Below are positions 4,855-51,729 of a DNA stretch of 64,000 bases, piece by piece; the stretch's first letter is position 1; each line of letters starts with the position of its first letter. The stretch spans positions 62,001-126,000 of the forward strand of contig CASEYR010000002.1 in assembly GCA_949292205.1 (NCBI GenBank), given 5' to 3'. This stretch comes from an uncultured Alphaproteobacteria bacterium (GTDB taxonomy: Bacteria; Pseudomonadota; Alphaproteobacteria; CAAHEQ01; UBA3637). The notes under the pieces were generated by a model. That model saw only the letters and a program-made list of their open reading frames with translations. It was not told the DNA's origin and searched no databases. A program made the position numbers and the translations under genes.

Positions 4855-5703
4855 TTATATCTGATTGATATTAAAGTCATTAATTGATTCTAAAATCATA
4901 TCACTTTTGATTTGATGACGAAACCAAGTTATTTGTCGTTTAGCGTAGTGACGTGTGGATAAAATAGCTTGTTCACACATTTCTTCTTTAGAGATATCTC
5001 CTTGTAAATAAGAGATAATTTCAGGCACACCGATTGCTTTTAAAACGCCTCCGGTTGGTTTTAATGTCAGTAAATGTTCAATCTCTTGAATACCCCCCTG
5101 CTCTATCATTTGATGAAAACGAATGGCACATCGTTCATACAGAAAGGATCTTGGCGGATTCACAAAAATGATTTGAAAATCAGCATCTAAAAGCTTTTCT
5201 TTTGGTTGTTTCGTAAAATAAGACAGGGGCTTTCCTGTGGTTAATTGAACTTCTAATGCTCGCCGTAACCGTTGAGGATCAACAGCCGGACAATCTATAA
5301 CTTGCTTTCTGACATCATCAATATCCATGTTGCGAACCTGTTTTCGGATATCTTCGTCAACATCAGGTATCCTATTGATACCATTAACTAAAGAAGATAT
5401 GTAAAGCCCTGTTCCACCAACAAGAACCGGATTTTCCGTTTCTTTTAAAACAGGAACAACACGACTGAGCCAATCTTGAACCGAGCTTTGAAAATAAGCG
5501 TCGGCATAACCGTATAATAAGTGGGGAATACCTTGCATTTCCTGTGATGTCGGTCGAGCGGATATCAGTGTTAAATCTTTATATATTTGCATCGCATCGG
5601 CATTGATAACCGAACCGTCTATTTCTTTTGCAATCTTAATCGCTAAAGCTGATTTTCCACTGGCCGTCGGGCCGATAATAACTCTGATTTTTTTGTTCGC
5701 CAT
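4855..5703 (-). CDS. miaA: tRNA dimethylallyltransferase MiaA
   Basis: 282 residues. It transfers the dimethylallyl group to N6 of A37 in tRNAs that read codons starting with U. GPTASGKSALA near the N-terminus is the P-loop. INADAMQIYKDL carries the DxxQxY substrate motif (usually DSMQVY; here DAMQIY). VGGTGLYISSLVNGI is the second conserved block, and RRALEVQLTTGKPLS plus the C-terminal STRHYAKRQITWFRHQ are family signatures. It is slightly shorter than E. coli MiaA (316). It stands alone on the minus strand between parB and lptE, with lptE diverging from it. Confidence 0.94.
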   Translation of the reverse strand: MANKKIRVIIGPTASGKSALAIKIAKEIDGSVINADAMQIYKDLTLISARPTSQEMQGIPHLLYGYADAYFQSSVQDWLSRVVPVLKETENPVLVGGTGLYISSLVNGINRIPDVDEDIRKQVRNMDIDDVRKQVIDCPAVDPQRLRRALEVQLTTGKPLSYFTKQPKEKLLDADFQIIFVNPPRSFLYERCAIRFHQMIEQGGIQEIEHLLTLKPTGGVLKAIGVPEIISYLQGDISKEEMCEQAILSTRHYAKRQITWFRHQIKSDMILESINDFNINQI

Positions 5704-48843: not shown

Positions 48844-49625
48844 AGCAGCTATAGCTCCTCCTACAGCTAGAGCTTGTGCTAAAAGAATTCCCCCTATCAT
48901 GGTTCCCCCCAGCTCCTGCTAATCCTGCCGTTATAGCGGCTCCGCCTGCCAGTCCTGCAGGGGCTGCCGCAGTTATAATAGCGCCAGCCGCAAGAACTCC
49001 TAAAGCTCCGCCTGATAAAGATTTCCCAACGATCTTCCCTATTTTTTCTGCTCAAGCATTTCATGAATATCATTTTTGTATGTAAAGCTTTTTTGATACA
49101 TTCAGGTGTTAGTTTTTCAATATCTCCGGCTTGTCTAGGAGATAATTGAAATTCTTGTTTTATAATTTCTTTTTTTGATTTTGCTAATTTATTAAATTGA
49201 GGAATTAATTTTTTCTTGTTGATGTCTGTTCTCATACCGCGGCAAGTTTTAATTCCTTTTAATATTTCGCTTAATCTTAATTCAGCAAGTAATAGTAAAG
49301 AAGCATGTTCTTGAGTTGATTTTAAAGCAAGGTGGTATCTATTAGGGGTTAATTTCAATCCATTTAACAACTTTGTTTCAGCTTCAATATATTTTTTTGC
49401 CAAAGTAATATATTTAGGCAATGCTGTTGGATCTGTTGGTATTGTAGGGAAGTTATTGTCATTAATGGTAACAAGTTCTTTGTTTGCAGATAACTCGTGA
49501 GGAATATCTTCACTTGTAATAGTATATTCAGCATCAATAATATTTGTTGTATTTATTACAGGATTTTGATCATCGAAATCGGCCAAAATTTGAGTTTGTG
49601 CTAAAGTTTGTACAGTATTATTCAT
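48841..49625 (-). pseudogene. Frameshifted gene with glycine-zipper C-terminus
   Basis: The N-terminal 190 residues are readable: a leader with DAEYTITSEDIPHE, then ALPKYITLAKKYIEAETKLL, EHASLLLLAELRLSEILKGI and RGMRTDINKKKLIPQFNKLA, a charged helical protein like those seen on plasmids and phages. After SPRQAGDIEKLTPECIKKAL the frame is lost. Restoring one A at each of two A-runs (near 49080 and 49047) and removing one G from the G6 run (near 48908) gives a Gly/Ala-rich membrane stretch (GGALGVLAAGAIITAAAAPA) ending at the TGA. At least three indels, so inactive. Unknown function. Confidence 0.55.
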
Positions 49626-49910
49626 TTTATTTCCTTTCGTAAATTAAGGTTAAAGTTCTCCCTGTCCGGAAAACATGGTCTTACCGGTTATAAATTGGGA
49701 ATGTTATGTAAAAGATTTTTTAGATTGAATTTGCCTCTATAAAGCTCTAAGCAGAATTCATAAGAGATATTAAGAAGTTCATGTCATTTTTTGCGCCTTT
49801 GCTAATGTTGTTATCTTTTATGTAAGCTATTATAGAGAAAGAAATTTTTTTAATAAGATGACAACATATCCCATAGAGGGACATTCTTGGCAAAAAATGG
49901 ACAGAATTGA

Positions 49911-50162
49911 TTAATTGATGCAAGAAGAGATAAAAAACTCATAAACATCTTGGATAAAGTAACAGTGTTTTTCTACACAAAAGCATTTGGGAGTTAATTT
50001 ATTGGCTTTTCTCCATCGAGTGATGGTTTTTGTTGAACAACCTAAAATGCCAGCTAATTCATTAGTTGTCATCCAACCACGTTTTAATGTTGCATAGTTT
50101 AAATGAGAAATAATATATTGAGAGACGGTATTGTTTGGTAAATTAAAATTTTCTGGATTCAT
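49911..50162 (-). CDS. Excisionase/MerR-like winged HTH protein
   Basis: 83 residues. RGWMTTNELAGILGCSTKTITRWRKANKLTPKCF is a helix-turn-helix of the excisionase type, with WMTTNELAxxLxxSxxTIxRWxxxGxLxP spacing. CVEKHCYFIQDVYEFFISS follows. Such proteins are recombination directionality factors or small regulators of mobile elements. The ATG has no strong ribosome site on the minus strand (GGAATAAATC). The 285-base gap upstream of the previous gene (49626-49910) shows nothing but A+T-rich sequence with one CCGG...CCGG pair. Upstream of its start lies a block of minus-strand hairpins that could attenuate its transcription. Confidence 0.7.
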   Translation of the reverse strand: MNPENFNLPNNTVSQYIISHLNYATLKRGWMTTNELAGILGCSTKTITRWRKANKLTPKCFCVEKHCYFIQDVYEFFISSCIN

Positions 50163-50185
50163 GATTTATTCCTTTTTAAAACAAA

Positions 50186-50216
50186 AAAAGGACCGAAAAA
50201 TAATTGCGATCCTTTG
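50186..50216 (-). terminator. Minus-strand terminator-like hairpin upstream of the HTH gene
   Basis: Read on the minus strand, AAAGGATC ... GGTCCTTT (one mismatch) is followed by TTTT. It lies only 24 bases before the HTH start codon and could act as an attenuator. Confidence 0.4.
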
Positions 50217-50231
50217 GTGGTTAATAGTTTG

Positions 50232-50335
50232 ATTTGGGTATAAAAAAAGGCCGTGAAACACGGCCTAACTGTATAAGGAATAATCTGTATGAAATTACAC
50301 CAATAAAAGGTGTAATACCTTTATTATACCCAAAT
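50232..50335. ncRNA. Candidate three-helix structured element
   Basis: ATTTGGGTATAA (50232-50243) pairs perfectly with TTATACCCAAAT (50324-50335). Inside are two perfect hairpins: AGGCCGTG-AAA-CACGGCCT (50248-50266) and ATTACACC-AATAAAA-GGTGTAAT (50294-50316). Together these form a three-way junction on either strand. On the minus strand the first hairpin is followed by T7, i.e. an intrinsic terminator inside the fold. It may be a leader RNA of the minus-strand HTH gene, a small RNA, or a DNA cruciform used in replication or recombination. No known family is recognised. It belongs to a 708-base gene-free stretch, 50163-50870. Confidence 0.45.
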
Positions 50336-50378
50336 AAAAGGAATAATTGATTGTATTTGTAATTAAGGGGAAGATACA

Positions 50379-50401
50379 AAAAAAGCCCCAAAAAAAGGGC
50401 A
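50379..50401 (-). terminator. Third minus-strand terminator-like hairpin
   Basis: On the minus strand GCCC, T7, GGGC-type stem followed by T7. Weak stem (4 bp) but with a long T-run. It is the farthest of three hairpins stacked upstream of the HTH gene. Confidence 0.35.
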
Positions 50402-50601
50402 GACTAATCCTTATACAAGGAAAACACATAAACTGATATCAATTCATCAGTAAAACAGACACATAAATAAATTTAAATATGATAATTTTTTTATTTATCC
50501 CGTTTCGAGAGTAAACTTAGCATACACAATGTCATTAAGTCAAGAATTTTTTTTACTGAAAATGAGCGTGTTTTAAAACTCTACATACGTAAGGCCTTTT
50601 T

Positions 50602-50714
50602 TACCCGGATATAGGTGGGTATTAAAGAATCTTATAAAAAAACGACTATTGGGTATCCTAGGCGGGAAGGTGCCGGTATATCCTACCCCCGTACCCCATA
50701 TCCGGGGCATATGG
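50602..50714. repeat. G+C-rich palindromic block in an A+T-rich gap
   Basis: CCCGGATAT (50604-50612) has its exact inverted copy ATATCCGGG (50698-50706). Between and around are variants of the same word: GGATATAGG, GGTATCCTAGG, GGTATATCC and CATATCCGG. It contrasts sharply with flanking A+T-rich sequence. Possible roles are an origin with iteron-like sites, a recombination site or a structured RNA. Nothing coding is seen in it. The following 150 bases hold the promoter of the next gene. Confidence 0.4.
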
Positions 50715-50870: not shown

Positions 50871-51729
50871 ATGGGCTTGTTTAATAAATATAATATTGAA
50901 ATTGATCCAAATCTTTTAGATGAATTAAAAAAACTATGTTGAAGCGGAAAATATTAAATCTACAGTAGAAAATTTAATAAAAGACTATATTGAGAAAAAG
51001 AAGCCTGCAATGTCTGCTAATCAAGAAAAAGTAGCTCGAAACTTAAAAAATTGGCTAAGGAGAGAAAATAGTGAATATAGAAAGATTATTTGCTCTTTTT
51101 TTGAAACTCAAGAAAGTGATGGTCGTGTTTTAAAAGGCAAAATGCATGGGTATTGTGAGAAAAATAAGTGTACTCATTTTGTGACATATTTTTCTCAATT
51201 AACAAACTCTACAATTCAACAGGGTAAAATCTTTGAGGAAAATAAGTATGGATATGTCAATCTTGCAGACGATGTAAAGGATATGATAGTTGATTTTTAT
51301 AAAAATGTATCTAATAACAACGCAAATAATTCAGCTAAAAATGTAAATGATTTAGATAAAAAGTGTGAAGATATTCATAGTAAAAGTTCAGATGATATGG
51401 AAAAATCTGAAGCAATTGCTTTATTGCGTCAAAAAAATTATATAGTGCATTCATCTGTAACATTTGCCAGTACAAATGCGTCTTCAGGGGAGTTTTAGGC
51501 AAATGCTAACCCTGAATATATTAAAGATGACTGGAGTTTTATCTTAAATGATAAAACGAAAAGACAGTTATATTTGCTAAATATTCCTTGGAATACGTTT
51601 AAATCAGGAACAGTGTCAGTCCGAGATAACGGCAGGTTAGATATAAGACTGGATCCAAACACCTTAAGAAATAAAGCTCCAGATAAAATTAATTTTGCTC
51701 CCTATAAAATTGCAGAGATTAGCTATTAA
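50871..51729 (+). pseudogene. Broken unknown gene (about 285 codons)
   Basis: AAGGAG lies 7 bases before the ATG. The frame MGLFNKYNIEIDPNLLDELK breaks in a seven-A run (50937-50943); with six A's it continues NYVEAENIKSTVENLIKDYI and reaches the open frame starting MSANQEKVARNLKNWLRREN. That frame ends at TAG (51496), but the same frame stays open for 76 more codons (ANANPEYIKDDWSFILNDKT ... NFAPYKIAEISY) to TAA. So one indel and one nonsense codon separate three parts of one gene. The N-terminus looks ribbon-helix-helix or coiled; the end is a beta-rich domain. No family recognised. Confidence 0.6.

Follow-up and report, generated by a model that had tools for sequence, protein, structure and literature searches.

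Leaders that are controlled by terminators are already known. Classical attenuators (the leaders of amino-acid operons, T-box leaders and ribosomal protein leaders) combine one terminator with alternative long-range pairings. In processive antitermination (lambda N/nut, HK022 put RNA), serial terminators precede the early genes and are passed only by modified RNA polymerase. In the immunity system of phage P4, termination depends on the pairing of CI RNA with complementary sites in the leader. The isrK leader of the Gifsy-1 prophage gives a small RNA when transcription stops at its terminator and an mRNA upon read-through, and the locus has been described with a transcription terminator and the antiterminator gene antQ (PMC4825925).

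The leader described here is located in a 64-kb stretch of DNA (the window) and appears to have isrK as the nearest described analogue found in our literature search. Both are leaders of a mobile element in which termination would give a short RNA and read-through a longer mRNA, with a regulatory circuit downstream. They differ in that the terminators of the window form a stack of three, an antiterminator gene was not recognised, and the sequence is not detectably related to isrK (Rfam negative). The likeness to P4 is a satellite-type element, a leader transcript that ends early, a structured RNA as by-product and small excisionase-like regulators. P4 differs in its dependence on the CI RNA, which is complementary to sites in the leader. 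Serial terminators are shared with lambda and HK022, but a put/nut-like element or an N-like gene was not identified at this locus. Compared with the single terminator of classical attenuators, there are three here, with no leader peptide, no Rfam match above gathering and no clear antiterminator. We regard the triple-terminator arrangement as a variant of the known leaders and not as a separate category.

The locus and its homologues

The host genome is 1.32 Mb. The leader is positioned between a divergent gene on the plus strand and the gene of an HTH regulator on the minus strand. The surrounding genes are:

52.3-61 kb: Type I restriction-modification genes, flanking the region
about 50871 (start) to 51729, plus strand: divergent gene, with an in-frame TAG at 51497 and a frameshift
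49911-50162, minus strand: HTH regulator gene, 83 aa, winged-helix, HTH_17, excisionase/MerR-like (calls from Pfam, PHROG and structure prediction)
48897-49625, minus strand: truncated remnant of a C5-cytosine methylase, behind the HTH gene; the intact homologue is L011:5536-7158
47.5-48.3 kb: truncated serine recombinase, 2 kb from the leader element

The sole close relative in the species-representative genome collection is L011 (CALXZK010000005.1), from a MAG of an uncultured member of the Alphaproteobacteria. Identity to the window is 92% for the regulator, 80% across 49113-50266 and 77% for part of the divergent gene; the similarity extends to both sides of the site at 50232-50335. L011 has an intact methylase (540 aa, PF00145), behind which a G2P-type replication protein is encoded. 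In the window, the N-terminal 182 aa of the methylase are 65% identical to L011, and beyond them the sequence is G+C-rich and unrelated. With its methylase truncated and its divergent gene interrupted, the window's copy of the module is decaying and for this reason may no longer be under selection. The order to which the window belongs consists of its family only (43 genomes each), and the L011 genome is in another family (152 genomes). As the window and L011 are in different orders, the module seems to have crossed between orders and would hence be mobile.

A third locus came from a covariance-model search, for which the model was based only on window 50158-50322 and L011 4828-5005. In 188 relatives of the window's genome the window was the only match, and in the 152 genomes of the L011 family there was one further convincing locus, G466:C23:4706-4878 (L049; 52.9 bits, E 3.9e-6 in its genome). 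The last position of the match falls right at the start codon of an HTH gene, the 91-aa product of which is 35% identical to the window regulator. The leader-to-gene arrangement is as in the window, and the neighbours are MT-A70 and C5 methylase genes and a G2P-type protein. As the search used the RNA only, G466 is an independent confirmation. The comparisons below use these three homologous leaders, the two closest of which are 80% identical.

Homologues of the leader or the regulator were not found in IMG/VR, phages, plasmids, the 43 genomes of the window's own family and order or 385 genomes sampled from the class. One IMG/VR search gave an unrelated phage excisionase only, L083 is likewise an unrelated phage excisionase, blastn matches of the leader in relatives are A/T-rich chance matches only, and in L055 (G489) a truncated remnant of the regulator stands without a leader. 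The covariance matches L045 and L047 were rejected, as they sit before metK- and groES-like genes; L048 resembles L047 and has no ORF at the matched position. A doubtful match, L046, has two hairpins before a 21-codon ORF.

The first-pass annotation had called the regulator excisionase-like, a fair description although not a certain one. The protein passes Pfam HTH_17 (28.7 bits, cut-off 27) but stays below the cut-off of NCBIfam 'excise' (17.9 against 28.8), and its PHROG matches are MerR-like and excisionase. The predicted secondary structure is H-H-H-E-E-H (pLDDT 66, modest confidence), and the gene product is predicted to be a small winged HTH protein of the excisionase/MerR type. Because the conserved partner is a DNA methylase, 'regulator' is the safer name. 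A recombinase near the HTH gene is seen in the window only (the truncated serine recombinase), with none recognised near L011 or L049 among the selected neighbours scanned.

The methylase genes have further features. Some 40 nt ahead of the methylase gene, the window (49655-49695, minus strand) and L011 (about 5460-5500) have a stem-loop, CCGG-UAAGACCAUGUUUU-CCGG, with an almost identical loop; it could be a candidate site for methylase autoregulation. G2P/ORF2-type replication-associated proteins are found beside the methylase module (L011:7668-8696, L049:586-1137), which suggests that the module comes from a rolling-circle plasmid or satellite. A second C5 methylase family, about 42% identical (G000:C2:135380-136840, L031, and L013-L017), occurs in the window's own genome and in other genomes of its family, with a conserved partner gene of about 400 aa upstream and no HTH regulator. 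These paralogues were rejected as homologous modules, as they have neither the regulator nor the leader.

A candidate promoter and three terminators

The elements of transcription in the leader, in the order in which a minus-strand transcript would meet them, are:

50515-50543, minus strand: candidate promoter TTGACT-N17-CTAAGT, a consensus match, with a predicted transcription start at about 50508
50378-50400 (hairpin 50385-50400), minus strand: T3, distal terminator, GCCC-T7-GGGGC + T7, -7.6 kcal/mol (L011 -10.8, G466 -9.3, at the same place with different sequence)
50241-50267, minus strand: T2, strongest terminator, AGGCCGUG-UUU-CACGGCCU + U7, -13.4 kcal/mol (L011 -12.7, G466 -12.9)
50183-50215 (hairpin 50187-50215), minus strand: T1, proximal terminator, AAAGGAUCG...CGGUCCUUU + U-tract, -9.6 kcal/mol (L011 -10.1, G466 -13.9)

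The candidate promoter resembles the alphaproteobacterial TTGAC / GCTA-type promoter. Its L011 counterpart, TTGACT-N17-CTATAT, has the same -35 element and spacing inside otherwise diverged sequence, and in both loci it is located upstream of all three terminators. In G466 a promoter-like site is not clearly recognisable. The intrinsic terminators thus lie, in gene sense, between the predicted promoter and the ATG, as expected of a terminator-controlled leader.

The HTH-sense strand was scanned for hairpins of at most -7 kcal/mol followed by a T-tract. Exactly three terminators per leader were found in all three loci. Relative to the ATG they start at -238, -105 and -53 in the window, -258, -106 and -52 in L011, and -253, -114 and -49 in G466; the end of T1 is about 22 nt from the ATG. 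Shuffled leaders contain a mean of 0.02-0.08 terminators, and three were reached in none of 200 shuffles of each leader. The opposite strand has one terminator in the window and none in L011 or G466. A triple of terminators occurs once in the 64-kb window; in about 146 kb of related loci it occurs only in both homologous leaders and in L036, which was set aside as a tRNA-gene artefact.

The sequences of the terminators vary more than their stems. T2 is formed by AGGCCGUG/CACGGCCU in the window, AGGUCGUG/CACGGCCU in L011 and GGUCGCG/CGCGGCC in G466, with a double change from U-A to C-G and G-U pairs across the homologues. T1 in G466 has lost one whole base pair and gained others, and the T3 sequences of the three loci are unrelated, yet the stem is retained. 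In plus-strand RNA or cruciform DNA the positions of the G-U pairs of T1 and T2 would be mismatched, so the conservation follows the minus-strand RNA.

Base pairing within the leader

The further pairing elements are:

50232-50243 (ATTTGGGTATAA) with 50324-50335 (TTATACCCAAAT): perfect 12-bp inverted repeat, the outer stem
50248-50266: 8-bp hairpin AGGCCGTG-AAA-CACGGCCT, 3-nt loop, U7 tail in minus sense
50294-50316, minus strand: hairpin 2, 8 bp, ATTACACC-AATAAAA-GGTGTAAT, 7-nt loop; minus RNA UUACACC-UUUUAUU-GGUGUAA, no U-tail in gene sense
50324-50335, minus strand: b1, 5' arm of the outer stem in minus sense, perfect 12-bp partner of 50232-50243; absent in L011, weak in G466
50227-50243, minus strand: unpaired conserved segment after T2, UUAUACCCAAAUCAAAC, with the outer stem's 3' arm inside it; L011 has the identical sequence, G466 has UUGUGCCCAAAAUAAAC
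50400-50418, minus strand: a1, 5' strand of a long-range helix, directly upstream of T3; the duplex with a2 has -22.6 kcal/mol (none of 2000 shuffles as good)
50269-50287, minus strand: a2, 3' strand of this helix, just before T2; its alternative partner is the ribosome-binding site

The first-pass annotation had described a perfect 12-bp outer stem enclosing two perfect 8-bp hairpins, one of them an intrinsic terminator on the minus strand, with two more terminator-like hairpins nearby and the HTH gene 70 bases away. All of this was found: the terminator is the hairpin at 50248-50266 with its U7 tail, the two others are at 50187-50215 and 50385-50400 on the minus strand, and 70 bases separate the outer arm from the gene start at 50162. 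The comparison with shuffled sequence that it proposed also bears it out, with z = -6.1 on the minus strand and -5.8 on the plus strand for the 100-nt core (0 of 200 shuffles as good). A simple pattern scan over 1.5 kb gave four terminator-like sites, where 0.6 would be expected. The covariation it called for is seen in T2, hairpin 2 and, between the window and L011, the a1/a2 helix; the outer stem is not conserved. RNAalifold pairs hairpin 2 in the window and in L011; base pairs differ at both positions between the two (C-G to U-A, U-A to C-G), and the loop CUUUUAU is conserved.

The outer stem is matched by 5 of 2000 shuffles in the window. As about one such repeat is expected per 64-kb shuffle (about 0.9 12-bp inverted repeats of such spacing, against three or four in the window), the stem by itself says little. 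In L011 it is missing: the 3' arm ATACCCAAAT is identical and the 5' arm is gone, and the best partner reaches -6.5 kcal/mol, with 1487 of 2000 shuffles as good. In G466 the stem is imperfect and statistically ordinary (-9.7 kcal/mol, 438 of 2000). The segment after T2, (A/G)U(A/G)CCCAAA..AAAC, is kept across the loci without its pairing partner. Because the outer stem is missing in L011 and ordinary in G466, the three-way junction is lineage-specific or accidental. The comparison shifts the structural model from the junction, which is conserved least, to the terminators, which evolution has retained.

The long-range helix was found by a repeat finder (17 of 18 positions pairing, one G-U, 50400-50417 with 50270-50287) and is part of the predicted minimum-energy structure of both the window leader and the L011 leader. 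L011 was tested separately with the aligned a2. The best upstream partner (-17.5 kcal/mol) is located upstream of T3 as expected, and is matched by 9 of 2000 shuffles of the upstream sequence and 3 of 1000 shuffles of a2. The aligned a2 columns show four compensatory double changes between the window and L011 (C-G to U-A, A-U to G-C, U-A to C-G, C-G to U-A). The equivalent in G466 is not significant (130 of 2000). As the order is a1-b1-a2-b2, the helix and the outer stem would be pseudoknotted or mutually exclusive. A pseudoknot of the a1-a2 loop with the T2-T1 spacer was not significant. Whole-leader folds have z values of -5.7 (window), -7.8 (L011) and -4.0 (G466), and in the two leaders for which z was compared the gene sense is more stable than the opposite strand. 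In G466 a separate long hairpin (L049 4503-4580, CTGAACATACAGATTTTGTGAA / GTCACAAAATTATGTGTTCA, -18 kcal/mol) precedes the terminators and may take the role of a1/a2.

In the consensus fold of the leader 3' half, a2 is paired with the ribosome-binding site. The best upstream partner of this site in L011 overlaps the 3' end of a2 (12 of 2000 shuffles as good). As the best partner in the window is a different segment, 50347-50335 (178 of 2000), translational control by this pairing is put forward only as a possibility. Neither a1/a2 nor a2/SD breaks the T2 or T1 stem, and the mutually exclusive antiterminator for T2 or T1 that classical attenuation needs was not identified in the leader.

Explanations for the leader

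The element is in all likelihood real, conserved and regulatory. We favour, with moderate confidence, an attenuator leader of about 346 nt that terminates by default, with the regulator expressed on read-through. It would form the 5' region of the HTH regulator gene in a horizontally mobile regulator/DNA-methylase module. Minus-strand transcription from about 50508 would meet T3, T2 and T1 ahead of the ribosome-binding site. By default, most RNA polymerases would get no further than one of these terminators, and the products would be short, structured RNAs of about 130, 265 and 325 nt. Expression of the regulator, and perhaps of the methylase behind it, would require polymerase to read through. 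The a1/a2 helix, on the covariation between two loci, would fold the part upstream of T2, and pairing of a2 with the Shine-Dalgarno/start region of the read-through mRNA may be a second, translational brake. This agrees with the first-pass proposal of a leader by which transcription of the excisionase gene is either halted or let through, and the three gene-sense terminators, their conserved distances to the ATG and their presence in three diverged loci argue for it. A leader ORF preceded by an SD is absent from all three leaders, except for in-frame extensions into the regulator gene. On this ground, an antiterminator protein, a trans-acting RNA or a modified RNA polymerase appears likelier than ribosome-mediated attenuation through a leader peptide.

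In each of the three loci the nearest upstream gene is directed away from the leader, which leaves little read-through for a barrier to block. This weighs against the idea that the terminators insulate the regulator from outside transcription, its promoter lying between T2 and T1 or overlapping T1. Stacked terminators would make a simple barrier, and the strongly conserved segment after T2 (UAUACCCAAAUCAAAC) could hold promoter or operator elements. The T2-T1 interval, however, offers about 30 nt and has no promoter-like match, T1 ends about 22 nt before the ATG, and the minus strand has no gene of at least 100 aa between 50.9 and 62 kb of the window; insulation keeps a modest chance of being correct. 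An independent trans-acting small RNA gene with backup terminators, the regulator being expressed rarely or from elsewhere, is improbable. Very stable folds (z -4 to -8), several terminators and the precedent of IsrK, an RNA made by stopping at a leader terminator (PMC4825925), fit such a gene. The nearly constant spacing from T1 and T2 to the ATG favours a role in cis, the body upstream of T2 is little conserved in sequence, and Rfam has no match near gathering scores: a tRNA is its only match in the whole window, and a permissive scan scores far below gathering. The small RNA raised by the first-pass annotation is compatible with an attenuator leader as a by-product of termination.

The same annotation had offered a cruciform recombination site, and the data speak against it. 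In favour of a recombination or replication site (att, oriT, single-strand origin) made of the outer stem and two hairpins are the perfect inverted repeat, the truncated serine recombinase 2 kb away and the G2P-type replication protein of the L011 and G466 modules. L011 lacks the outer stem although the adjoining module sequence is 80% identical, pairs of T1 and T2 are kept by G-U and are meaningful in minus-strand RNA only, no second copy was found in the genome, and the similarity of the window and L011 on both sides leaves no visible element boundary. We consider such a site very unlikely; an attC-like site was rejected on the single genomic copy and the outer stem not conserved in L011. 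It is equally doubtful that the HTH protein binds the TTTGGGTATAA arms as DNA operators around T2, the outer 'stem' being an inverted operator pair. Similar motifs are located near the start of the divergent gene in the window and L011 (GGTGGGTATTA, ATTGGGTATCC, GGTGGGTATAA), and G466 has three 9/11 matches (4 of 500 shuffles), suggestive in G466 alone; the same test gives no enrichment in the window (144 of 500) or L011 (136 of 500). Such operators would be compatible with an attenuator leader and could add to it.

An ordinary attenuator would do with much less than three serial strong terminators at fixed distances before one small regulator gene. Should they act as a real brake, the element would need a dedicated means of turning termination off, either its own or one that it awaits. 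There is a small chance that such leaders, with their three terminators and a covarying helix able to form a pseudoknot, make up a cis-regulatory RNA family of alphaproteobacterial mobile methylase modules that has not been described before. The regulator would then stay silent until the antitermination-competent polymerase of an incoming phage or element gets past all three terminators, and the module would sense infection by read-through. A real brake would add a termination-based switch to the control of mobile methylase modules in uncultured Alphaproteobacteria, the regulation of which has, to our knowledge, not been studied.

Two further observations were made. In another alphaproteobacterial genome, a weak covariance match (L051, G435, 231-379) has a short ORF immediately preceded by two gene-sense terminators in a stack. 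Between the divergent genes, the intergenic region is A/T-rich except for a G+C-rich patch with common AAGGTGCCGG and GGTGGGTAT motifs (window 50570-50710, L011 4260-4400), which is possibly a candidate origin or operator.
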